64,000 nucleotides of DNA from a bacterium (GTDB lineage: Bacteria > Armatimonadota > Zipacnadia > Zipacnadales > Zipacnadaceae), in assembly GCA_030615605.1 (NCBI GenBank), contig JAUWYY010000003.1, positions 62,001 through 126,000 on the forward strand. Direction: 5' to 3'. This document shows, piece by piece, positions 1,673 through 54,019 of this stretch; position 1 is the stretch's first letter, and each line of letters opens with the position of its first letter. The notes under the pieces are model-generated. The model worked only from the letters and a program-made list of their open reading frames with translations, was not told the DNA's origin and searched no databases. The translations under genes and the position numbers were made by a program.

Positions 1673-2509
1673 TTACTGCCCCAGTTCCTGTGAGCGGCGC
1701 GCGGCTGCTATGACTGCTTCAATAGCTGCGTTGCGCAGCCCCTTCTGCTCGAGGACACGCAAGCCAGCCGCCGTGGTACCACCCGGCGAGGTAACAGCTT
1801 CCCGCAACTCGCCCGCGCCGCGGCCTTCCAATACCCACTGGGCAGCCCCCCGCGTAGTCTGGGCAGCCAGTTGCACGGCTGCTTCCCGAGGCAAGCCCAC
1901 CGCTACTGCGCCATCCACAAGCGCCTCGATAAACAAGGCCACAAAGGCCGGTCCGCTACCAGAAACGCCGGTTACCGCATCGAGAAGACGCTCTTCGACC
2001 GGGACAATCGTGCCGACCGCACCAAATAACGCCTCGACAAACTCGCGCTGCTGGGCACTAACCTTCTCGTCGCTGCTGTAGGCCGCAGCGCCCTCGCCGA
2101 TGGTGCATAGAATATTGGGCATGACCCGGACAATAGCCGGGCACGATCCACACAACTGCGCCAAACGGGCCAGTCTGATCCCGGCGGCAATAGAGACAAC
2201 CAACTGGCCGTCGCGAAACACTGGCTCAAGAGGAGTCAACACAGAAGCAATGACCTGGGGCTTGACGGCCACTACGACGACTTGCGCCGATTCAACCACC
2301 TGACGATTACTGTCAGCGACCGGATGGCCCAGCAGTGCGCCGATAGTCTCCTGGCGCTCCGGGTCCGGATCGTAGAAGACAACTTGTTGGCCAGCAACAA
2401 TTTCAGCCTCAATCGCCCCTCTGATCAGGCCCGTGCCCATACTGCCGGCTCCAACTAAACCCAGTCGGTAGTCATATTCAGACATCGGGTCGCTCCCGCC
2501 CAGCCCCAA
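1673..2509 (-). CDS. proC: Pyrroline-5-carboxylate reductase
   Basis: GLVGAGSMGTGLIRGAIEA Rossmann start; GVSGSGPAFVALFIEALVDGAVAVGLPR and SPGGTTAAGLRVLE signatures. Confidence 0.93.
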   Translation of the reverse strand: MGLGGSDPMSEYDYRLGLVGAGSMGTGLIRGAIEAEIVAGQQVVFYDPDPERQETIGALLGHPVADSNRQVVESAQVVVVAVKPQVIASVLTPLEPVFRDGQLVVSIAAGIRLARLAQLCGSCPAIVRVMPNILCTIGEGAAAYSSDEKVSAQQREFVEALFGAVGTIVPVEERLLDAVTGVSGSGPAFVALFIEALVDGAVAVGLPREAAVQLAAQTTRGAAQWVLEGRGAGELREAVTSPGGTTAAGLRVLEQKGLRNAAIEAVIAAARRSQELGQ

Positions 2510-2539
2510 TCATTCGCCCCCTACAGCCACAAATAGCGA

Positions 2540-3109
2540 TCAGTATTCCAGCTCATTCAACTGGGGGACATACTCATCCTCGAATCGGTCTTCACCGCGC
2601 CGAGACGCATCCAAGATCAGCCTTTCGATGGGCATATCAAACGGAGAACATATGTACACCCAACTACTAATCTTGCGCATATACCCGTTCACACCGTAGG
2701 TGACACCGCCCAGGAAATCGCGGATCCGGCCCGCTTCCTCTCGTTCGACACCCTCCAGATTGAGCACTACAGGGTTTTGGCGCTTGATTTCATCCCCGAC
2801 AGCAGTAGCTTCCTCCATGGTGTGGGGTTCGGCTCGGACGACCGGGCAACTGATCGCCTGAGGTTTACGCGGGGAAGTTGTCACTCGGGGGTCGAGGTCG
2901 CCTTCACTAGTCGGCGAAGGCTCCTCATAGTAATCAAACTCGCCGTATTCGACTTCATCCGCATCCAGGCCCAGCCACTGCATGGTCTGAGCAAACAGGC
3001 CTCTAGCCACCGGTGGTCCCTCCTTTGCTGCGACTGATTGCTGCGTTGAGTGCTGTGTGTGGTATCTCGAGTGTTTCAGCGTATAGCGATCTGTATTATC
3101 ACTGGCCAA
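2540..3109 (-). CDS. sepF: Cell division protein SepF
   Basis: C-terminal domain ...DEIKRQNPVVLNLEGVEREEAGRIRDFLGGVTYGVNGYMRKISSWVYICSP; neighbours yggS and yggT. Confidence 0.88.
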   Translation of the reverse strand: MASDNTDRYTLKHSRYHTQHSTQQSVAAKEGPPVARGLFAQTMQWLGLDADEVEYGEFDYYEEPSPTSEGDLDPRVTTSPRKPQAISCPVVRAEPHTMEEATAVGDEIKRQNPVVLNLEGVEREEAGRIRDFLGGVTYGVNGYMRKISSWVYICSPFDMPIERLILDASRRGEDRFEDEYVPQLNELEY

Positions 3110-3119
3110 AGGCTATTGC

Positions 3120-3836
3120 TTATCGGCCAGGCCCAAAAAGTGCTGTGCCCAGCCTGATGGTTGTCGCTCCCTCTTCGATCGCTACCTGGTAGTCGCCGCT
3201 CATACCCATCGACAGCTCACTCATCGCCTCGTTGGGTAGCCCCAGGCTAACCAATTGCTCGGCCAGATCCCGCAGAACCTTAAATAGCGGGCGACTGTCC
3301 TCGGAATTATTGGTGTAAGGCGGCATAGTCATTAGCCCCCGCAGTTGCAGGTGCTCCAGTTCCATAACTTGCTCAGCCAACTGTGCCGCCTGCTCAGGAG
3401 CGATTCCAAACTTGCTCTCCTCACCCGCTATGTTGACCTCCAACAGCACAGCTTGTACCCTGTCAATGCGGGCGGCTCGCTTGTCAATCTCTTGAGCCAA
3501 CCGCATACTCTCAACCGAGTGTATCCGGCTACAAAATGGCACTACATAGCGAACCTTGTTTCGCTGCAAATGGCCGATCGTGTGCCAGCAGATCTCACTG
3601 TAGCCAGCCTCGTCCAGCTCACCCTTTTTGTCAAGCAGCTCCTGAACGTAGTTCTCCCCCACATCGCTGATGCCAGCCTCGACCGCCGCCACTATCTCCG
3701 GAACGCTACGCCCCTTGGTCGCCGCCATAATGGTGACATCTTCAACCTCGCGTCCAGCCCGTTCGCAGGCCCGCTCGACGTTCTCACGAGCTTCTGCGAT
3801 ACGCTCAACAACTGTCGGCATCAATGATCTCGCCAA
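3120..3836 (-). CDS. YggS family pyridoxal phosphate-dependent protein
   Basis: VTIMAATKGRSVPEIVAA, GENYVQELLDK, WHTIGHLQRNKVRYV, LSMGMSGDYQVAIEEGATTIRLGTALFG. Confidence 0.93.
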   Translation of the reverse strand: MARSLMPTVVERIAEARENVERACERAGREVEDVTIMAATKGRSVPEIVAAVEAGISDVGENYVQELLDKKGELDEAGYSEICWHTIGHLQRNKVRYVVPFCSRIHSVESMRLAQEIDKRAARIDRVQAVLLEVNIAGEESKFGIAPEQAAQLAEQVMELEHLQLRGLMTMPPYTNNSEDSRPLFKVLRDLAEQLVSLGLPNEAMSELSMGMSGDYQVAIEEGATTIRLGTALFGPGR

Positions 3837-3852
3837 CGATTCGTCCGTACCG

Positions 3853-4377
3853 TCAATCTCCGCCTATGGTCCATTCGTCCTCGGCGCTCTCTTCAGCTTC
3901 CTCTTCAGCGGCCGACTCGTCGAGATCGAATACCTCTTCAGGGGTAGGAGGCGCCGGAGGAGCTTCGGGCATTTCTTGCTCCGCTGCGGCAGCCACCGCC
4001 TCTGCTGGTTCCTCCTCGAATTCTACAATTCCCGGCGGGGGCGGAGGAGGAACATACTCTTCTTCCGCATCTTCAGCAGCTTCTTCGACGGGCCCGGCGG
4101 CGGATACATCTTCAAGCCCTACCATCTCGTATTCTTCCGGAGCCTCCACATCACCTTCTGCCCCCATTGCCCCGCCCGCCGGGCCTCCCAGGCTTCCTTC
4201 TACGCCCTCGAGCAGCACCGCAGCCATAGCCTCTGGGCCAGGGGGGGCATCCGCAACTGGGACCGGCTGCTGTCCCTCCCCGACCGCCACGACTGGCAGC
4301 GGAGCATGACACATCAGGCACGCGCCACGCTCTGCATCATTTGCGTATCCACAGTTAGGGCAATACTTGTTGGCCAT
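3853..4377 (-). CDS. Zinc-ribbon protein with long acidic/proline-rich low-complexity tail
   Basis: N-terminal MANKYCPNCGYANDAERGACLMCHAPL (two CxxC pairs); remainder Glu/Ala/Pro rich. Confidence 0.65.
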   Translation of the reverse strand: MANKYCPNCGYANDAERGACLMCHAPLPVVAVGEGQQPVPVADAPPGPEAMAAVLLEGVEGSLGGPAGGAMGAEGDVEAPEEYEMVGLEDVSAAGPVEEAAEDAEEEYVPPPPPPGIVEFEEEPAEAVAAAAEQEMPEAPPAPPTPEEVFDLDESAAEEEAEESAEDEWTIGGD

Positions 4378-4437
4378 TACAATCGGCCTCTTCGGTCAAC
4401 CAAGATTCGCTACTATGTCCGCAACAATAGTCATACA

Positions 4438-7562: not shown

Positions 7563-7767
7563 CGATGACCTGCATATGGGCGATATAGTGGAGCTGAAAA
7601 AACCGCATGCGTGCGGAAGCAACCAGTGGGAAGTGATCCGACTGGGGGCCGACATCCGCGCGCGGTGCTGTCAGTGCGGTCGGGTCGTGATGATACCTCG
7701 GCGGCGCTTTGCACGACTGATCCGCGCCCGGCAGCCTCGAGCCCAGGCTTCCGAGGAGGACCAGTAA
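7552..7767 (+). CDS. DUF951 family protein
   Basis: [45 protein letters not shown] matches the DUF951 pattern; overlaps end of kinase gene. Confidence 0.85.
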
Positions 7768-7860
7768 ATTACCGAGCCGCCTGCAGCACCGAGCCCCCGG
7801 TTGCGCCACGATAACTATTGGCTACCAGCCAGATACACTTTTGTTGGCAAGGGAAAAACA

Positions 7861-8802
7861 ATGAACAATGAAATACTCATCGTAGGTTCGCTGGCCCTGG
7901 ACACGGTCGAAACCCCGTTTGGCCGCGTCGAAGATACCCTGGGCGGCGCGGGCCTATACGCAGCAACCGCGGCCAGCCTACTTGCTCCCGTCCACGTGGT
8001 GGCTGTAATCGGCGATGACTTCCCTCAGCAAGCGCTTGATGAGCTGTCCGCACGAGGCGTCGCACTCGAGGGTGTCCAATGGGTGGAAGGAGGGCGCTCA
8101 TTTCGATGGTCAGGTCGTTACGAATACGATATGAATGAGGCCGAAACCCTGGACACTCAGCTCAACGTTTTCGCCGATTTCGATCCCGTCTTGCCCGAGC
8201 CGGCCCGCCGCTGCGGTTATGTGTTTCTTGCTAACATTCTGCCCTCTCTCCAGCTAAAGGTGCTTGACCAGGTGCAACAGCCCCGCCTGACTATCTGTGA
8301 TACAATGAACTTCTGGATTGAGAATGCCCGCGACGAACTGCTGGAGGTATTTCGCCGGGTGGATGTAGCCGCAATGAACGATGCTGAGCTGCGCCAACTG
8401 ACCGGCGAACCGAATCTGGCCAAAGCCGCCGCTGAGGTGTTGACGATGGGCCCGCAGTATCTTATCATAAAAAAGGGCGAGTACGGGGCGTCGCTTATCT
8501 GGGAAGAGGGGCATTTTGCCCTGCCCTGCTGCCCGCTGCCGACAGTGATAGACCCCACCGGAGCGGGCGACAGTTTCGCCGGCGGCTTCGTTGGCTTCCT
8601 GGCCTGGGCTGGAGGAACCAGCGAACAGCAGCTCCGGCAGGCCTTAGCTATCGGCACCGTGACGGCCTCGGCGTGTGTGGAGGACTTCTCCATCAACGCA
8701 CTGGGCAGACTTACCATAGATGACCTATACAGCCGCTACGAAGCCCTCCACGAAATGGTCAGATTTGAAGCAATATCCCCACAAGCCATCCTGCCAACCT
8801 GA
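7861..8802 (+). CDS. PfkB family carbohydrate kinase
   Basis: MNNEILIVGSLALDTVETPFGR...DTLGGAGLYAA; PTVIDPTGAGDSFAGGFVGFLA (PfkB signature). Start chosen at ATG 7861 rather than track start 7801. Confidence 0.85.
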   Translation: MNNEILIVGSLALDTVETPFGRVEDTLGGAGLYAATAASLLAPVHVVAVIGDDFPQQALDELSARGVALEGVQWVEGGRSFRWSGRYEYDMNEAETLDTQLNVFADFDPVLPEPARRCGYVFLANILPSLQLKVLDQVQQPRLTICDTMNFWIENARDELLEVFRRVDVAAMNDAELRQLTGEPNLAKAAAEVLTMGPQYLIIKKGEYGASLIWEEGHFALPCCPLPTVIDPTGAGDSFAGGFVGFLAWAGGTSEQQLRQALAIGTVTASACVEDFSINALGRLTIDDLYSRYEALHEMVRFEAISPQAILPT

Positions 8803-8820: not shown

Positions 8821-9786
8821 ATGCCCGACATAATCTGCCTTGGTGAACCGATTGTTGACATGGTCTGCACCCAGCCGGCCCGCGACCTGGTGGCAGCCTC
8901 AAATTTCGACAAGCTAGCCGGGGGCGCACCGCTGAATGTCGCCGCCGCTGCCGCACGCCTCGGGGCAAGCTCCGGGGTCATCTGCAAGGCGGGAGGTGAC
9001 CACTTCGGCGACTTCATGCGCCTGAATCTGGAAGCCTGTGGAGTGAATACTGAGCACTTGCTTCAGGATCCGGAGTACGCCACCCAGCTTGCTTTCGTCG
9101 CAGTTGATGAGCACGGCGTTCCCGACTTCAGCTTCCATGTCAAGCAGAGCGCCGATATGATGCTGAGCTCCTCGGAGCTAGACTGGTCCTATATCAATAC
9201 CGCCGAAATCTTCCACTTTGGTACCATCACGCTGATAAATACGCCCGTGCGGAAGGCAACCCTGGATGCGGTACAGTGGGCGATCGAGCAGGGGATAATG
9301 ATCAGCCTCGACCCCAACCTGCGTCCCGCGCTGTGGCCGGATCTCAAGGAAGCTATGCGCTGGTTCCTGCAGGCTATCGCCAAGTGTGACTTTCTCAAGG
9401 TCAGCGCGGAGGAAATGGAGTTTGTAACCGGCACCCGGGATCTAGAAAGCGGCGCCGACGCGCTGTGGGAGATGGGGCCGGAGCTGGTGGCCGTCACCCT
9501 GGGCCCGGAGGGCGCCTATGCTTACAATGGCCACCAGGGCGGTCATATTCCGGGATTCGGTGTTGATGTGGCCGATACGGTAGGCTGCGGCGATGCGTTC
9601 ACTGCCGGAGTGCTCGTCAAGCTGCTGGAGTCTGACACCGATATAGCTCAGCTTGACTGGCTCGCGCTGAAAGAAATCATGATGTTTGCCAATGCTACCG
9701 CGGCGCTGACCGCCACCGCCAAAGGCGGTATCCCCGCTATGCCCGCCAGACAGCAGGTGGACGAATTCCTGCGCCGCCAGGGCTAG
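8821..9786 (+). CDS. PfkB family carbohydrate kinase (fructokinase-like)
   Basis: ICLGEPIVDMVC, GGAPLNVAAAAARLGA, SLDPNLRPALWPD, DTVGCGDAFTAGVLVKLL. Confidence 0.87.
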   Translation: MPDIICLGEPIVDMVCTQPARDLVAASNFDKLAGGAPLNVAAAAARLGASSGVICKAGGDHFGDFMRLNLEACGVNTEHLLQDPEYATQLAFVAVDEHGVPDFSFHVKQSADMMLSSSELDWSYINTAEIFHFGTITLINTPVRKATLDAVQWAIEQGIMISLDPNLRPALWPDLKEAMRWFLQAIAKCDFLKVSAEEMEFVTGTRDLESGADALWEMGPELVAVTLGPEGAYAYNGHQGGHIPGFGVDVADTVGCGDAFTAGVLVKLLESDTDIAQLDWLALKEIMMFANATAALTATAKGGIPAMPARQQVDEFLRRQG

Positions 9787-10168: not shown

Positions 10169-11401
10169 ATGGGTAAGCTATTGACCGGACAACAACTAAG
10201 AAAGATCTTCGACCACTACTGTCCCTTTGACGGGGAGGGCAATCTGCGGCCAGTCGAAGAGCGCGTGACCCTGTGCGCCAATAACTCTAACAACTGGTGG
10301 CAGACCCGCGCATTTGTCCAGGGCGCCGCCCAGGGCGACCAGTCGCCGATGGTCATCCAGTTCTCCTACAACGCCAACCGCAAAATTGGGGGGGCTCCGA
10401 CCGCCATCTTTATCCCCGAGGGCGTCTCTTACCACGCCAATCCAGTGACTACCTCGGCCAGGATAATGTCGGATTGGCTGGCGATGGAAGTCGAGGCCTG
10501 GGGGGCCGATTTTGTGGCAGCTTCGCTGGACCACTTCAACGTCCCGAAGTTCTCGCTGACCACCGAATATGAGCGCGCGGCGACCCCGATCGAATACGAG
10601 GACAATATTGACGCTGCCCTGGCATACCTGCGCAAGCAAGGGCTCGACACCGTCGCCGCTGAGGTGGGCGACGACACTTTTACAGCCTACTCGAACTATT
10701 TGCGAAGTGTCGAGTATCGCAACTTCCGGGCTGATTTCCTGGATACGGTTAGCATCATACAGCCCGCCTGGGGTATGATCGACACCGAAGGGATTCCTCC
10801 GGTGCTCGACTTCATAATCACCAAAGACATTACCAGCGGCGTGCGCACCGACCTGAACAACAACGATATGATGTTGGAGGCTGAGCTAGGTGCCACCGGC
10901 AAGAGCGGTGACGAGATCGAATACGAGGAAATCTCCGATGAGCAACTCGCCGAGTTCGCTCATCTGGCGGCCTCCTTTATAGCCTACACCGGAGCCGAAG
11001 GTATCGCCTATGATATTGGTATGAAGCACTCTGCCAAAAGCGGAGAGAAGCATCCGACCGATGCCCGCAAGCTGGAGGTCGTCCAGCGGACGATCATCGA
11101 AGAGACCGGCATTTACGCTCCCTTCGCCCAGCATGGGGGCACTGGAGCTGCCGATGTCCCCCGGAGCTTGATCGGCAAGACCAACCTCAATACCTGCTAC
11201 CTGGTCGCCGGTACCCAGGCACGCTTCAACTATATGGATGAGCACGCCGACAAGGTTCGTGCCGGCGACAAGAGTATCTGCGGCACCGACATAGAAACTC
11301 ACATCTACCTGCAGGGCGTCTACGAAGAGGTTGTGCGCCGCTTTGAGGGCACCGGAAGCTGGCAGCTCGGCCCCGAGCTTGCCCGGATCCTGCCCGAATA
11401 A
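10169..11401 (+). CDS. Class II (fructose-bisphosphate type) aldolase-like protein
   Basis: VAASLDHFNVPKF and C-terminal GIYAPFAQHGGTGAADVPRSLIGKTNLNTCYLVAGTQARF resemble the zinc/phosphate-binding regions of class II aldolases; overall divergent, 410 aa. Confidence 0.6.
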   Translation: MGKLLTGQQLRKIFDHYCPFDGEGNLRPVEERVTLCANNSNNWWQTRAFVQGAAQGDQSPMVIQFSYNANRKIGGAPTAIFIPEGVSYHANPVTTSARIMSDWLAMEVEAWGADFVAASLDHFNVPKFSLTTEYERAATPIEYEDNIDAALAYLRKQGLDTVAAEVGDDTFTAYSNYLRSVEYRNFRADFLDTVSIIQPAWGMIDTEGIPPVLDFIITKDITSGVRTDLNNNDMMLEAELGATGKSGDEIEYEEISDEQLAEFAHLAASFIAYTGAEGIAYDIGMKHSAKSGEKHPTDARKLEVVQRTIIEETGIYAPFAQHGGTGAADVPRSLIGKTNLNTCYLVAGTQARFNYMDEHADKVRAGDKSICGTDIETHIYLQGVYEEVVRRFEGTGSWQLGPELARILPE

Positions 11402-11441
11402 CCAGCGCGTCGGCGCTCCATAACAGAATGACTTAGGCAAA

Positions 11442-11480
11442 GGGGTGGCTAACTGACCAGCACAGCCACCTCTATTATTT
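11442..11480 (+). terminator. Intrinsic terminator-like hairpin between aldolase and transaldolase genes
   Basis: GGGGTGGCT - aactgaccagcac - AGCCACCTC stem followed by TATTATTTT. Confidence 0.6.
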
Positions 11481-42398: not shown

Positions 42399-42851
42399 AT
42401 GAATCTGCTTGCCGATCACATTGGCCGCCAGATGTTAGTTGTGGGCGTGGGCAATCCAATGCGAGGTGACGATGAGGCCGGGCTGGTCCTGGCCGAGAAA
42501 GTTGCCGAGAAGCTCGACCTGGAATATCTCCGCTGCGAAGAAATACCAGAAAACTATGTCGGAACAATGCTGGACAACCCGGCTGACACCATCCTACTGG
42601 TTGATGCCGTAGATATGAAGCGAGCTCCCGGCGAAATAGGTCTGCTTGCGCCCGACGAGCTGGCCGACGCCGGCATTTCCACCCATAACTGCTCAGTAGG
42701 GCTGCTGGCTAAGGTGCTGGCGGGAGTCAAGGACAAGCAGATGCTGATACTGGGTATCCAGCCCCAAAACCTGGGCTGGGGCCAGCCCCTGACGCCATTG
42801 ATCACCGAGGCCATCGACCGTTTTGTCGCTGACTTGCCCGACCGCCGCTAA
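42399..42851 (+). CDS. Hydrogenase maturation protease (HycI-like)
   Basis: MLVVGVGNPMRGDDEAGLVLAEKVA, ILLVDAVDMKRAPGEIGLL, ILGIQPQNLGWGQPLTP. Confidence 0.88.
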   Translation: MNLLADHIGRQMLVVGVGNPMRGDDEAGLVLAEKVAEKLDLEYLRCEEIPENYVGTMLDNPADTILLVDAVDMKRAPGEIGLLAPDELADAGISTHNCSVGLLAKVLAGVKDKQMLILGIQPQNLGWGQPLTPLITEAIDRFVADLPDRR

Positions 42852-45393: not shown

Positions 45394-45422
45394 TTGACAA
45401 CACTGGGGAGATATGATATAAT
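45394..45422 (+). promoter_or_regulatory. Perfect-consensus sigma70 promoter of the flagellar/T3SS-like operon
   Basis: TTGACA - 17 bp - TATAAT, exact hexamers, TGA immediately before the -10. Confidence 0.8.
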
Positions 45423-45529: not shown

Positions 45530-46525
45530 ATGGGGGCACTGGGCGACCTACTTCGCTGGTGGCAGGCGCTTTCTCAACACTCGCGGATGGCTTATGCCAT
45601 TGTGAGTGTCATTGTAGCTGTTGCCCTGGGAGTAGCGCTGTACCAGGGCTACTGGGGGCCGGCTGCTCCGACCTCGTCTGATGGCGCAGAGCATGAGCGT
45701 GGCTCGCGGGCCACGCTGCCAACAAGTATATTATCCCTCCCCCTCCCGGGCACCACCCGGCGCAGGCAAGCCGAAACCACGCAACTCCTGGAAAGTGCTC
45801 TAGTTGGCTACGACTACATCGCCGACGCCCAGGCTACTTTCGCTGTACGCCCGTCCGAGACCGAAACTGCCAGCTCCCCTCGCCTCTCGCTGCAATTACG
45901 GTTCCAGCCTGCCTCTACACTGCCGGATAATTGGCTGGACAACCTGGTTGCTTTCGTTTTACATACCGTCCCGGGATTACGGCCGGCCGACCTACTAATC
46001 ATCGACAGCCGCGGCGAGGTCCTCTACACCAAAGAGCAACCGACCCCCGCCGCAGCCAGCATGGCCTCTCGCCCTTCCCCCTCCGCTAGCCCAATCTCCG
46101 AGCCGAAGGCAGTCTTCAATATCCCGACAGGGGCCTGGGGACTGGCAGCACTGCTAGCTATTGCGTTGGCCGCCTTGTACCTACGGCAGGCTCGGCGAGG
46201 CAGCCAGCAAGCCCAAACGAGCGGCGCGACTGCGGCCAGCCGACCACCCCAGCTCGAGCAGTTTCTCAGTGGTTTGACCGCCGGCCAGATTACTTCACTG
46301 GCCGAAGGTGAACGTCCTGAGGTGGTAGCCGCCCTCCTGCATCACGTGCCCAACGCGGAAACAGCGGCCACAGCCCGGCAGCAGATGAATGCTCTACCTG
46401 GGAGCTTATCTGAGCCAACGCAACCGACGCGGGAAGAAATCTTAGTCTCATTCACCGAGACCTTGCGCACTAAATTGACGGCAAGCCAGAATACCCTCGG
46501 CAACGGTGGTGATCACAGTGAGTGA
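45530..46525 (+). CDS. Truncated FliF/SctJ-like ring protein fused to FliG-like C-terminal segment
   Basis: N-terminal TM; SESALVGYDYIADAQATFAVRP...PRLSLQLRFQPASTLPDNWLDNLVAFVLHTVPGLRPADLLIIDSRGEVLYTK resembles the ring-building motif of FliF/SctJ; second TM WGLAALLAIALAALYLRQ; then LEQFLSGLTAGQITSLAEGERPEVVAALLHHVPNAETAATARQQMNALPG resembles a FliG segment. Position first in a fliH-I-J-M operon. Confidence 0.65.
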   Translation: MGALGDLLRWWQALSQHSRMAYAIVSVIVAVALGVALYQGYWGPAAPTSSDGAEHERGSRATLPTSILSLPLPGTTRRRQAETTQLLESALVGYDYIADAQATFAVRPSETETASSPRLSLQLRFQPASTLPDNWLDNLVAFVLHTVPGLRPADLLIIDSRGEVLYTKEQPTPAAASMASRPSPSASPISEPKAVFNIPTGAWGLAALLAIALAALYLRQARRGSQQAQTSGATAASRPPQLEQFLSGLTAGQITSLAEGERPEVVAALLHHVPNAETAATARQQMNALPGSLSEPTQPTREEILVSFTETLRTKLTASQNTLGNGGDHSE

Positions 46526-47114
46526 ACGGCTGCTGAAAAAAGCGGACATAGACCAGAGGGGGCTGTGGGTAAGGCCGGTGCGATTCGAATCAGGCTTTGA
46601 TCACGAAACCACCCCCCCGAACAACCCGGCAGGCAGTGACGGAACTGTACCCGCCCTTACTGACCTGCAGGATGCGTCAGCGCAGAGGGCGCGCATCAGA
46701 AACCTGCTTCATGACCTGACCACCCAACTGGCGCACGACAAAGAGCGCTTGCTGGAGGAGCTCCAGCCCCATCTTGTTCGTCTGGCTATCGCCATCGCTC
46801 GGCGCATCGTCGCCACTGAGATTCGCCAGGACCGCCGGGTTGTCGAACGCACCGTCAAAGCCGCTCTGGAGGACCTGGCTTGCCACGGAGAACTGCACGT
46901 GCGCGTCCATCCCGACGATCAGCCGGTCGTGCAAGATATCCTCCAAACCGATGAAACGCTGCTGGGACGACTCTCCAACCTGCTCGTAATCGGCGACTCC
47001 AGCATTGAACGCGGAGGCTGTATTGTGGAAAGCGACCATGAAATCATTGATGCTGATATCCCCACCCAACTGGCCCAGATTCACCGAAGCCTCCCGGCAT
47101 ACGTAGAGCAATAA
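46506..47114 (+). CDS. FliH/SctL-like protein
   Basis: LEELQPHLVRLAIAIARRIVATEIRQDRRVVERTVKAALEDLACHGELHVRVHPDDQPVVQDIL...IERGGCIVESDHEIIDADIPTQLAQI; overlaps upstream gene, precedes fliI. Confidence 0.8.
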   Translation: MVITVSERLLKKADIDQRGLWVRPVRFESGFDHETTPPNNPAGSDGTVPALTDLQDASAQRARIRNLLHDLTTQLAHDKERLLEELQPHLVRLAIAIARRIVATEIRQDRRVVERTVKAALEDLACHGELHVRVHPDDQPVVQDILQTDETLLGRLSNLLVIGDSSIERGGCIVESDHEIIDADIPTQLAQIHRSLPAYVEQ

Positions 47115-47134: not shown

Positions 47135-48475
47135 ATGTCTATACAGCCGATAATCAACAAGCAAGTCCAGCGATTTGAACACCTGGTCGAGCAAGCCCGG
47201 ACAGCCAGCCGGTTCCGGCGAGCCGGAACGGTAGTGGAGATTTCCGGGTTGACAATCGTCGCTCGCGGCCCGGCTGCGCAGATCGGTGAACTGTGCGTCC
47301 TGGAACCGGACAACGGCGATGATCCGATCTACGCCCAGGTGGTGGCCTTCCGCGAGAATCATACCATTCTGCTGACGCTCGGCTCGTTGCAAGGTGTCCG
47401 GCCGGGCTGCCGCGTCGTGGCCATCGGTCAGCAACTGCAAATCGGCACAGGGCCACAGATGCTGGGCCGGGTAGTAGACTGTTTTGGCCGGGCGCTGGAT
47501 GACAAAGGTCCCATCCCTGTCCGAAGCCATCGGGCGCTGGAAAACGCTCCGCCACCACCACTACAGCGTCGCCGCATAACTGAGCCACTGTGGGTGGGCG
47601 TGCGCGCCATTGACGGTCTGCTGACCTGTTGCCAGGGACAGCGACTGGGCATCTTCTCAGGAGCTGGCGTCGGCAAGAGCGTGCTGCTGGGGATGATTGC
47701 CCGCAATAGCAGTGCCGATGTCAACGTAATTGCGCTTGTCGGCGAGCGCGGGCGAGAAGTTCTCGATTTCCTGGAGCGTGACCTGGGCGAGGGGCTGGCT
47801 AAATCCGTCGTCGTGGTGACTACCTCCGACCAACCTCCGCTGCTGCGGGTACACACCGGGCTGGCCGCTACCGCCATTGCTGAATATTTCCGCGACCAAG
47901 GCGCCAATGTTCTGTTGCTAATGGACTCGCTGACCCGCCTGGCGCGAGCTCAGCGCGAGGTTGGCCTGGCGGCTGGCGAGATGCCCACCACCGGCGGCTA
48001 TCCGCCGTCATTGTACACTATGCTCCCCAAGCTTCTGGAACGAGCCGGGGCAACCCAGCGGGGCACGATAACCGGACTTTATACGGTACTGGTCGAACAA
48101 GACGATCTACACGATCCGGTCGGCGATGCCGCCAGTGCCATCCTGGACGGGCGCATCGTGCTCTCCCGCCACCTCGCCGAAGCTGGCCACTATCCGGCTA
48201 TTGATATCACTCGTTCGGTTTCGCGGCTGATGGCCGATGTCGTTGAGCCAGACCACCGCCAGGCCGCGGCCCAGTTCCGGTCGTTGGTGGCAGCCCGCAA
48301 CGAAGCCCAGGATTTGATAGACGTAGGGGCGTACACCCGAGGCAGCGACCCCCGGGTAGACCGGGCCCTGGCGCTGCGCGCCGAGATGAACCGGTTCCTG
48401 CAACAGCCTCCTAATGAGTATACGGCCCCTGATCGTACCCGCCAGCGGTTGAAGAAATTGATGATGATCAGATGA
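47135..48475 (+). CDS. fliI: FliI/SctN-type secretion ATPase
   Basis: GIFSGAGVGKSVLLGMIARN (Walker A), LVGERGREVLDFLERDLG, LLLMDSLTRLARAQREVGLAAGEMPTTGGYPPSLYTMLPKLLERAG, VLVEQDDLHDPVGDAASAILDGRIVLSRHLAEAGHYPAIDITRSVSRLM. Confidence 0.92.
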   Translation: MSIQPIINKQVQRFEHLVEQARTASRFRRAGTVVEISGLTIVARGPAAQIGELCVLEPDNGDDPIYAQVVAFRENHTILLTLGSLQGVRPGCRVVAIGQQLQIGTGPQMLGRVVDCFGRALDDKGPIPVRSHRALENAPPPPLQRRRITEPLWVGVRAIDGLLTCCQGQRLGIFSGAGVGKSVLLGMIARNSSADVNVIALVGERGREVLDFLERDLGEGLAKSVVVVTTSDQPPLLRVHTGLAATAIAEYFRDQGANVLLLMDSLTRLARAQREVGLAAGEMPTTGGYPPSLYTMLPKLLERAGATQRGTITGLYTVLVEQDDLHDPVGDAASAILDGRIVLSRHLAEAGHYPAIDITRSVSRLMADVVEPDHRQAAAQFRSLVAARNEAQDLIDVGAYTRGSDPRVDRALALRAEMNRFLQQPPNEYTAPDRTRQRLKKLMMIR

Positions 48476-48927
48476 ACAAACGTATCGCCCGGATGGGTAA
48501 CATCCTGAACAACCGCACAAGCCAGGAACGACTCTGTCAATGGCGAGTGGGCACGTGCCGCCGACTGCTGCATGCAGCCGAGGCCAAACTGAGCGGACTA
48601 CACCACGAACAGACCGCTTTGCGCAACACCACCGGCAGGCAGGTCGCATATACTGTTCACTGGCATCAGCAGCGCCAGCGCGCACTGGCCGAGCTGGACC
48701 GGCGCATAACCCGAATCCAGCGCACACATCAGCGGCTCAAGCAGAGGGCCTCTCGCAGACAGGCCGAGCTGGTCAATGCCGCCCAACTGCGGCGCGCTGC
48801 CCAAAAAGCTACCGCCCGGCTCCAGCAGCAAGCCAACCAAACAGCCCGGCGCAGCCGCCAGAGGCGATTCGACGACCTGATCCGCAGTAAACGAGTAGCT
48901 CTCAACTCTCATGCTACTGCCACCTGA
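48472..48927 (+). CDS. FliJ/SctO-like coiled-coil protein
   Basis: 151 aa Arg/Gln/Ala-rich helical protein, ATGA overlap with fliI; assignment relies on size, composition and position. Confidence 0.55.
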   Translation: MNKRIARMGNILNNRTSQERLCQWRVGTCRRLLHAAEAKLSGLHHEQTALRNTTGRQVAYTVHWHQQRQRALAELDRRITRIQRTHQRLKQRASRRQAELVNAAQLRRAAQKATARLQQQANQTARRSRQRRFDDLIRSKRVALNSHATAT

Positions 48928-50107
48928 TACCACATATCAGCGGGCCCGCTTCCCTGCCGCCTGGCAGCTAGGCAGCCAGGAGCGACAGGCGCTGCAGGCC
49001 CAATTGCCTACGATGACCGAGGCGCTGCGCCGCGTCAGCCGCAGCTACCTGGGCACGGCTGCCACCACCGACACCCCTCAGTTGCTCTGGCAGCAGTCTG
49101 AATTAGAGGAGATAGAACAAATCATCGGGGCCACGCTGGTCTCACGCTTCGGCGACTCCGGCCAGATGGTAACAATAATACCCCGAGCACTGGCAGCACG
49201 CTGCGTCGGCCCATTACTGGGATACCCCATGAAGCTGGAGCTATCCTCTGAGAGATTGACCCGAACGGACCTGGCCATCTTGCAGCCATATCTGGAAGCG
49301 CTGGCCGACAGCGTCCTGCGTACGCTTCTTGGCAGTCGTGGCCGACACCAGATGTTATCTGCCGATGCCCCGCGGTCGGGGCTCGCCTCCGAAAGCTTTG
49401 CTGTAGCAATTCCCCTGGGGCCAAGCGGCGGCCGGCACGACATAGTGATGGCAGCATCGACCGCAGCCTGGCGCAATAACCTCGCAGTCAATTCCGAAAC
49501 CGACCCTACCGGGCTCAAGCGCAGCCAACTGTATGCTCTTCCGGTGTGCCTGGAGGCCGTCCTATCCGCTCCATCTCTAGGGTTAACCGAACTGCAGGCG
49601 CTGGCTCGCGGGGATGTCCTGTTGCTGACCAACAACCGAAAAATGATTGTGCAACTGCAAGCCGACGGCCGGCCGGTCGCCGCTGGACAGGCCGGTGCCC
49701 AGGGCAGTCAGCTTAGTGTACGCTTACTGGCGACAAATACTTACAGCGGGAGCCACACAGCTATGAGCGAGCAGCCCAACACTGTCCCCCAGTCCGAGCA
49801 GCAACTGTCCTCAGCCCAAACGCCCGAGGGCACACGCACAGGCGAGACGACCCTGGAGTCGGCGGACGGGATTCCGGTCGAGATTCAGATCCGGCTGGGA
49901 CAAGTTGTCATGCCGCTGGGCGAACTGCAGGAGCTTTGCGCCGGCGCAGTGGTGACCCTGGACCGCAGCCTCGATGATCCGGTAGAGATTCTGGCCGGCA
50001 ACAAGGTGGTTGCCCGTGGCGAGATCGTGGCGGTCGAAGACCAACTGGGAGTTCGCATCTTGCAGGTAGCCGATCCACACCAGGCCCAGAGCGAAGCTCC
50101 CCACTAG
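48911..50107 (+). CDS. FliM-FliN fusion-like C-ring protein (two SpoA domains)
   Basis: TYQRARFPAAWQLGSQERQALQAQLPTMTEALRRVSRSYLG resembles FliM middle-domain start; C-terminal IPVEIQIRLGQVVMPLGELQELCAGAVVTLDRSLDDPVEILAGNKVVARGEIVAVEDQLGVRILQV is a SpoA/FliN domain; a second SpoA-like segment at LPVCLEAVLSAPSLGLTELQALARGDVLLLTNNR. Confidence 0.78.
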   Translation: MLLPPDTTYQRARFPAAWQLGSQERQALQAQLPTMTEALRRVSRSYLGTAATTDTPQLLWQQSELEEIEQIIGATLVSRFGDSGQMVTIIPRALAARCVGPLLGYPMKLELSSERLTRTDLAILQPYLEALADSVLRTLLGSRGRHQMLSADAPRSGLASESFAVAIPLGPSGGRHDIVMAASTAAWRNNLAVNSETDPTGLKRSQLYALPVCLEAVLSAPSLGLTELQALARGDVLLLTNNRKMIVQLQADGRPVAAGQAGAQGSQLSVRLLATNTYSGSHTAMSEQPNTVPQSEQQLSSAQTPEGTRTGETTLESADGIPVEIQIRLGQVVMPLGELQELCAGAVVTLDRSLDDPVEILAGNKVVARGEIVAVEDQLGVRILQVADPHQAQSEAPH

Positions 50108-51858: not shown

Positions 51859-52142
51859 CTAATCCTCCCTCCCCAATTCTGTGCTGCTCCTGGAAGCACC
51901 ACTTTTCTGACGCACAGCCTCCGCCAAGCAAACCCCAGGAAGGTCAATTCATTCCTGGAGAGAAGTGAGGATGCACATATCACGGTTGCCAAGCGTAGAG
52001 CTGAGGCGCGATCAACTGCAACCCTGACTCCATCTGCACGGAAATGCTACCTCACGTTACACATTACCCCCGCCTGGAACGTTATAGTAAGTGAGAAAAG
52101 GATTTGCAGGAGCTTGCGAAGACCAGAAGCCAGGAGGCTGTT

Positions 52143-52655
52143 GTGGAGACCGGGGAACAACTCTACCAGGAACTGATCGCACCCATCGAGCAGCAGATGA
52201 TGCGCACCGTCACCGGAATACTCCGCGACCCAGAGGACGCTGCCGATGTCTTCCAGGAAGTGTTGGCGATTATCTGGAAGAAACTGAGAAGGATTCACCG
52301 ACACCCCAATCCTCACAGTTATATCTTGCGCATCTGCGTTAATGCTTCCTACGACGCCCTTCGTAAGCGCGCCCGGACAAGAGGAAGAGAAGTGTCCCTC
52401 GGAGCAGAAGCGCGGGCGACTCTTGTCGGAACGCCGGGAGGCACCCCGGAGGCTGGCGAAAGAGAAGAGACAGTCATGCAGGCGATCTCTGCTCTGCCCG
52501 CCAAACAAGCTAAGGCAGTGCTGCTGCGTGTAGTCGAGGACCTGCCCTATGAGGCCATTGGCGGCATGCTGGGCTGTTCCGAGGCGACCGCTCGTTCCCA
52601 TGTGTCGAAGGGCAAGGCCCATCTTCGCACGATCCTGTCTGATCCACATTCCTAA
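52143..52655 (+). CDS. ECF-type RNA polymerase sigma factor
   Basis: LRDPEDAADVFQEVLAIIWKKLRRIHRHPNPHSYILRICVNASYDALRKR (region 2) and ALPAKQAKAVLLRVVEDLPYEAIGGMLGCSEATARSHVSKGKAHLR (region 4); GTG 52143 sits 5 nt after AGGAGG. Confidence 0.88.
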   Translation: METGEQLYQELIAPIEQQMMRTVTGILRDPEDAADVFQEVLAIIWKKLRRIHRHPNPHSYILRICVNASYDALRKRARTRGREVSLGAEARATLVGTPGGTPEAGEREETVMQAISALPAKQAKAVLLRVVEDLPYEAIGGMLGCSEATARSHVSKGKAHLRTILSDPHS

Positions 52656-52678
52656 CCCACAAAAGGAGAAGAGAGACC

Positions 52679-54019
52679 ATGACACCCAAAGCGCGTGACC
52701 TGCAGGAACCCGGTCAGCACGACATGATCGGGGCATTGCGTGATGCTTTACGCCAATATAATTCCGAAGAACTCAATCCACGCATGCGGGAGGCCCTGAA
52801 AAGCTTCCGCGAGGGCTTACATGCCCACCCCTACGTTAGGTCACTGGAGAAACACGGGGCGATTACTCGTTCGCTTCGCCGGCGTCGCTTCGCGCCGGGG
52901 ATACCTCGTATTGGTCTCTTCTGGCGCGCACTGCGTCCAAAGCCACTGCTGGTGGGAGCCGCGGTGGTGCTGGTAGCTCTTCTGGTCAGCGTGCTGCTGT
53001 TGGCTCCACGGCCTAGTTCGGACTTCGCCTGGGCGGATGTGGTAGAGGCCATGCAGAGGGTGGAAAAGGCGCATATCACAGGCAGTTCCGGCGATATGTG
53101 GTATTTGCGTGGGCACGGTTGGCGGTGGCAGACGGTGGGGTGGGAGCACGCGCCTAGTGGTAGAACGCTGATTCTGACGCCGGAAGCCTCGTGGCTGGTC
53201 AGTGAGGACCACGCAACCCTGGCGGACCCAGACCCTGCACTGATTGCCAGTAAGGTCAGAGCCAATCTGACCGCTCCGGATTGGATGGCGTTAATGGAGG
53301 GACCGAGCACCGAGGGAGAAAACCGTATCACGAATTGGCGGGTGAATGACGATGTGCTGGATGGTATGCCCGTCAAGCGCCTTGACCTGTGGGGGGGCAT
53401 GACGCCGGACTCTAAGGGGAAGGTGTGGATAGATTGGGACACGAAGCGGATCCTTCGCTACGAAACATGGAAGATCGAAGAAGACGGAAGGGAAACACTC
53501 ATTATCTGGTGGACCGTGGACTATGACAGTCCGGTTGATCCAAGTCTGTTTGCATACGAGCCCCCAGCGGGGATGAGGATCCAGGACTCTCGTTTGACTG
53601 CGATACGAAGACAGGCCATAGAGGGTGCAATAGCTGCGCTGGCAGACTACCCGGACGAAGTCGCATACCTCGAACATCTGCTCGCCGAGTGGTTGAGTCT
53701 CAATTGCTTCTTTGAGGTCGTGGAGACGGAGGATTCAGGACACAAACTGGCGCGCGTATGGTCGGCTCATTTCAGCGAAGAGCAGAAGGTACGCTTCGAA
53801 AGCGAACCGACTAGCCAATTCTTCACGTTTGACCTAAACGAGAAGAAGCTGGTTGAGCGCGAAGTGAAGCACCGCCTGAGCCTCCCATGCCCATCCTCAT
53901 GCCGCATCCCGGGCACTCACACGCATCCTAGCCACGAACAACAGACGCTCGAGCATGTCCGTATCGAATATGATGAGGTGGGCCAACCCCATATCCTGGA
54001 CCTTAAGGCCATTGAATGA
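52679..54019 (+). CDS. Single-pass membrane protein co-encoded with ECF sigma factor, extracytoplasmic domain possibly LolA/RseB-like
   Basis: About 95-aa cytoplasmic segment, TM LLVGAAVVLVALLVSVLLLAP, then FAWADVVEAMQRVEKAHITGSSGDMWYLRGHGWRWQ...; directly follows sigma gene. Confidence 0.5.
   Translation: MTPKARDLQEPGQHDMIGALRDALRQYNSEELNPRMREALKSFREGLHAHPYVRSLEKHGAITRSLRRRRFAPGIPRIGLFWRALRPKPLLVGAAVVLVALLVSVLLLAPRPSSDFAWADVVEAMQRVEKAHITGSSGDMWYLRGHGWRWQTVGWEHAPSGRTLILTPEASWLVSEDHATLADPDPALIASKVRANLTAPDWMALMEGPSTEGENRITNWRVNDDVLDGMPVKRLDLWGGMTPDSKGKVWIDWDTKRILRYETWKIEEDGRETLIIWWTVDYDSPVDPSLFAYEPPAGMRIQDSRLTAIRRQAIEGAIAALADYPDEVAYLEHLLAEWLSLNCFFEVVETEDSGHKLARVWSAHFSEEQKVRFESEPTSQFFTFDLNEKKLVEREVKHRLSLPCPSSCRIPGTHTHPSHEQQTLEHVRIEYDEVGQPHILDLKAIE

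Follow-up and report, generated by a model that had tools for sequence, protein, structure and literature searches.

A natural FliF-FliG fusion at the head of a flagellar-type export operon in an Armatimonadota genome in which no rod, hook or filament genes were found

The window, by which we mean the whole 64,000-nucleotide stretch of DNA analysed here, from an Armatimonadota bacterium near Candidatus Zipacnadia, comes from a draft genome (G000; 93% complete, 59 contigs) and carries on its plus strand an operon of five genes: a fliF-fliG fusion, fliH, fliI, fliJ and fliM-fliN. The first gene (45530..46525) specifies a protein of 331 amino acids with matches to both FliF and FliG. It overlaps by 20 bases a FliH-like gene (46506..47114; Pfam FliH, 2e-24), which is followed by a gene for an ATPase of the FliI/SctN type (47135..48475; Pfam ATP-synt_ab 6e-84 and T3SS_ATPase_C 5e-24, NCBIfam FliI/YscN over its cut-off), by a FliJ-like gene (48472..48927; Pfam FliJ 6e-6, just below the cut-off) and by a gene coding for a 398-aa FliM-FliN fusion, a C-ring component with two SPOA domains (48911..50107; Pfam FliMN_C in two stretches, 7.5e-29). 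With flagellar FliM, the FliM-like part of the latter aligns along its length (probability 98.8, E 5e-17) and, therefore, a partner for a FliG middle domain is present. The gene upstream of the fusion is on the opposite strand. About 110 bases before the operon lies a sigma-70-type promoter-like site (45394..45422, plus strand; TTGACA-17-TATAAT with an extended -10), a candidate by its 12/12 consensus matches, which are striking in a window of 59% G+C; a search of the window for the canonical sigma-28 promoter pattern gave no match. Among the other genes of the surroundings are one for a hydrogenase maturation protease (HycI; 42399-42851), near the operon, and one for an ECF-type sigma factor followed by that of a 446-aa membrane-anchored protein (52104-54019), likely a sigma/anti-sigma pair.

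The fusion gene is real and under purifying selection. It has an ATG start and 331 codons, while stops occur throughout the minus strand at the same place, and its dN/dS is about 0.33 when compared with the nearest relative. The order of the parts of the protein is unchanged in 20 relatives, whose identity goes as low as about 20%, and in those examined fliH and then fliI follow downstream in the same order. A FliF-like W..LS...R stretch precedes the first membrane helix (about residues 20-41, 45587..45652; model helix H16-40, hhalign residues 4-41 against the FliF N-terminus). Then come a single ring-building domain of the RBM2 type (residues 76-169, 45755..46036; AlphaFold and Foldseek), a second membrane helix (about residues 201-221, 46130..46192; model helix H201-223, hydrophobic sequence) and, in a C-terminus that is helical in both sequence and model, a part resembling the FliG middle domain (residues 238-320, 46241..46489), recognised by profile matches and by PxxFL and GERPEV motifs. 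The 331-aa ORF with two transmembrane segments and one ring-building-like domain, as described in an earlier sequence-only reading, is thus recovered in full from the ORF, the sequence and the AlphaFold model.

Taken singly, the fusion sequence scored 0.0012 against PF01514 (YscJ_FliF), under the curated cut-off, and a phmmer search of the PDB with it returned no match, so that a family profile was needed; it was built from the 20 relatives. PF01514 is matched by 19 of these 20 family members, at best with 1e-11, and the profile finds complete FliF frames of the phylum, with E as low as 1e-13, as well as M-ring (FliF) proteins of the PDB, at 4.7e-11. When aligned by hhalign with nine FliF of the phylum, the family gave a probability of 98 (E 4e-13) over a region covering the N-terminal W..L....R and the membrane helix. 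The AlphaFold monomer, predicted from a four-sequence alignment, has a pLDDT of about 75-83 over most of residues 76-167, and the prediction, which the sequence-only reading had proposed as a check, assigns the periplasmic domain to FliF RBM2: Foldseek ranks FliF RBM2 chains first for the ring domain (E 4e-5, TM by target 0.6-0.76). The fusion has, then, an RBM2-type ring-building domain of the FliF/SctJ (YscJ_FliF) kind. RBM1 and RBM3 are missing from both sequence and model, and there would be no room for them, since the folded periplasmic part between the membrane helices amounts to only about 95 residues.

For the other half, hhalign comparison with 16 FliG of the phylum gave a probability of 92 (E 5.7e-7) over FliG 106-193, i.e. 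the FliG middle domain, FliG_M. In this alignment the PFDF of FliG falls on the conserved PxxF and its EHPQ on ERPE; within the family alignment, the F and the R of this part are invariant and the E is present in at least 90% of the rows. The whole-family profile matches FliF frames with its positions ~74-160 and FliG frames with positions ~213-302, often within one genome. Against Pfam FliG_M, just 3 of the 20 members give a match, the best with an E of 0.05 and below cut-off, and Foldseek run with the isolated C-terminal model (four sequences, pLDDT 71) found neither FliG nor any other meaningful match, which is why we rely on sequence profiles for the FliG identity. This Foldseek result, together with the weak single-sequence Pfam score, could be taken to mean that the C-terminal part is some other small helical domain, possibly MgtE_N-like, which resembles FliG_M by motif only, the protein being a short SctJ-like subunit. 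But a profile made from just the C-terminal 83 residues, when run over 121 genomes of the phylum, matches at E<=1e-5 nothing except the family itself and FliG (each of the 37 places outside the family is also a PF14841 place), none of the 20 members matches MgtE_N, the top PDB matches in the C-terminal region are FliG (eight chains, weakly, 0.005-1.5), and the fusion stands before fliH-fliI, where fliG normally is. We therefore hold another helical domain to be very unlikely. The C-terminal part would be a remote FliG_M homologue, in which ERPE replaces EHPQ and which seems to be about one helix shorter than FliG_M. With both halves matched by profile-profile comparison, as that reading had also suggested doing, its claim of a FliF-FliG fusion with a reduced FliF part is borne out; as to its FliG-like stretch, FliG_M is there and the whole of FliG is not, FliG_N and the torque domain FliG_C being missing (a single weak FliG_C match, 0.02, was seen among the 20 members). 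The scan of the phylum's genomes for FliG_M also brought up weak matches in frames of 430-465 aa (G050:C36, G077:C6, G156:C187, G165:C102), which, given their length and the known relation between the two folds, are probably MgtE-type magnesium transporters.

The remainder of the export core is encoded elsewhere in the genome, the genes lying at three places, the operon and two further contigs. One of these (C50) carries a second FliN, FliO, FliP, FliQ, FliR and FlhB, and the other (C12) FlhA and a sigma factor of the FliA/WhiG type; the genome has one FliP, one FlhB and one divergent FlhA. The components FliPQR, FlhA, FlhB and FliHI of a flagellar-type export core are thus all present. In relatives from other families (G016, G018, G030, G032, G038, G039 and others) the genes form a single cluster in the order fusion, H, I, J, M, N, O, P, Q, R, B, A, sigma; the fusion gene opens a cluster for the full core (FliH, I, J, M, N, O, P, Q, R, FlhB and FlhA) and a sigma-28-like factor. 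When the cluster flanks were searched for further shared genes, nothing came up beyond the core with its sigma factor, antisense shadows and a small number of neighbours of housekeeping type; no substrate candidate was among them. In none of the complete copies examined does FlhB have the autocleaving domain: the protein stops directly after the linker (e.g. ...EELRDTEG) and has no NPTH, which is present in the reference FlhB/SctU proteins, and in the genome-wide family search its match went no further than about position 240 of the 335.

Some genes around and within the second group of the window genome may be mentioned for themselves. Just before FliN/FliO/FliP on contig C50 (L108) lies a HisKA histidine kinase-like gene (10642-11442), found in three genomes of the genus (G000, G005, G001), which is a possible regulator. 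An amidohydrolase gene (8931-9701) is located between FliO and FliP and that of a DUF4190-like membrane protein (7698-8126) between FliP and FliQ, where other families have insertions too. At 2400-4400 of the same contig, six tRNA genes (Ser, Arg) on one strand are separated by 12-/24-base repeat arrays (CCTGCCGTTGTA-like).

Of the rod, hook and filament that define a bacterial flagellum, no genes were detected: searches of the window genome found no flagellin, no rod/hook protein of the Flg_bb_rod family, no FliG_N and, in the search of the genomes of the phylum, no FliG_M match. The relatives of the same genus G002-G006 show equal absences in the searches covering them, while a sixth, G001, has a flagellum as well. 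Such absences, seen in the window genome and in five of its six relatives within the genus, and the dispersal of the genes over three places are what would be expected of a decaying flagellum, i.e. of functionless leftovers from a lost flagellar gene set. However, dN/dS values are 0.10-0.35, the core is kept with the same gene order across several families of the class, and FlhA forms a clade apart from the flagellar FlhA of the phylum. Moreover, since many order-mates (G018, G023, G027, G030, G035, G037, G038, G039) hold the fused-ring system beside a separate intact flagellum, the system is not what would remain after the loss of that flagellum. Decay is for these reasons a quite improbable explanation.

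Another possibility is an ordinary injectisome, i.e. a non-flagellar type III secretion system (NF-T3SS) whose needle, SctD and secretin would be encoded elsewhere and be too divergent to be recognised. The presence of two SPOA domains in a single chain, which has a match to the NCBIfam SctQ just below the cut-off, a signal-peptide-like segment at the start of the fusion in other families, as in SctJ, and several secretins in the window genome would fit it. But secretins turned up in each of the 46 genomes searched, whether or not the fused-ring system is there. So wide a distribution is expected from their use in type II secretion or type IV pili. Within the clusters of the system, there is no gene for the secretin SctC, SctD or a needle, nor any extra conserved gene. 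Three components of the system, FliO, FliG_M and the FliA/WhiG-type sigma factor, are flagellar in character, and its FlhB is without the autocleavage domain, with NPTH, that SctU has. In a FlhA tree, unrooted and with Myxococcales and Chlamydiae left out, the 16 sequences of the fused-ring system make up one clade (100/100), separate from the flagella of the phylum, from other flagella and from the five injectisome SctV, and thus outside the SctV clade so sampled. We consider an injectisome unlikely.

What we propose instead is that the fusion is a covalent FliF-FliG adaptor serving an axial-less, non-rotating type III exporter, a reading to which we give a probability of roughly three in four. 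In ordinary flagella, FliG_N holds the tail of FliF. Here a direct peptide link would replace this joint: the membrane ring subunit is cut down to the RBM2 layer, and its cytoplasmic tail would be a FliG middle domain docking the FliM/FliN ring. The fused subunits would form a ring in the inner membrane, and the FliM-FliN ring, with FliH, FliI and FliJ, would pass substrates on to FlhA and to the gate of FliPQR and FlhB. Proton-driven, ATPase-assisted protein export across the inner membrane appears the most likely function; we infer export itself, because the searches brought up no substrate and no needle, rod or partner in the outer membrane. A rotary flagellum would not be expected given that FliG_C, rod/hook and flagellin are absent, nor, with FliG_C missing, would rotation against a stator. 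Because FlhB has no autocleaving switch domain, the machine probably handles a single substrate class without an early/late switch.

The fusion is natural, as the sequence-only reading had it, and it is not the first one. In 2016 a Chlamydiaceae protein of about 330 aa was described in which RBM2 of FliF is joined to FliG_M (PMC4768692); it is the only earlier natural example that we found and is of equal size and layout. That protein (CT719 / Cpn0860) is about 330-342 aa long and has two membrane helices, a SctJ-RBM2-only region and a C-terminal FliG_M (PMC4768692); a second RBM-like stretch predicted there is, however, not seen in the Armatimonadota fusion. The gene neighbourhoods are alike too. 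C. pneumoniae has a FliH-like gene between fliF and fliI, and the tail of its FliF binds FlhA (PMC2830194); in C. trachomatis, fliI is CT717 and fliF CT719, and flhA and the sigma-28 gene fliA have the consecutive tags CT060 and CT061 (PMC10597470). These sets are those of the window operon and of contig C12. But Chlamydia has these few genes beside a full injectisome, whereas in Armatimonadota the core is complete (FliJ, M, N, O, P, Q, R and FlhB). A common origin of the two fusions may be inferred from the layouts, likened on the basis of the papers.

Other systems are comparable in part. The flagellar basal body has the same order fliF-(fliG)-fliH-fliI-fliJ, FliO, a sigma-28-type factor and a homologous core, but its FliF has three RBMs and not one, its FlhB has the C-terminal domain missing here, and no rod, hook, filament, FliG_N or FliG_C was found for the Armatimonadota system. 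In the NF-T3SS of Myxococcales, an export core has likewise been long kept without rod, filament, secretin or needle; yet it is reported to be without FliG and the gene set described differs (PMC3459982). A fused adaptor can work, since engineered FliF-FliG fusions of Salmonella and Vibrio still form rings, although these are artificial constructs that keep the full FliF and belong to, or derive from, a normal flagellum (PMC6079021, PMC11481574). For Zipacnadia, flagella and a type III system have been mentioned from annotation only (PMC10290634), and no open-access paper describing an Armatimonadota fused-ring system was found. What looks new is, consequently, not the fusion but its setting, a whole axial-less export machine around it, of which the sequence-only reading made no mention.

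It is tempting to go further and to regard the Armatimonadota system as a third ancient type III lineage, a static, axial-less and switchless exporter, of which the orphan genes of Chlamydia (FliF-FliG, FliH-like, FliI, FlhA, sigma-28), rather than coming from a motile flagellum, would be the remnants. We offer this combined proposal tentatively, the odds being in our view against it. It bears on an old question, that of the origin of the injectisome from the flagellum and of what a type III machine did before it had a needle or a filament. A conserved and apparently selected core with a fused adaptor, devoid of axial parts and of the switch domain, would be a living machine resembling such an intermediate, found outside Proteobacteria and Chlamydiae, in the little-known Armatimonadota, and it may point to a possible source of the unexplained flagellar genes of Chlamydia.
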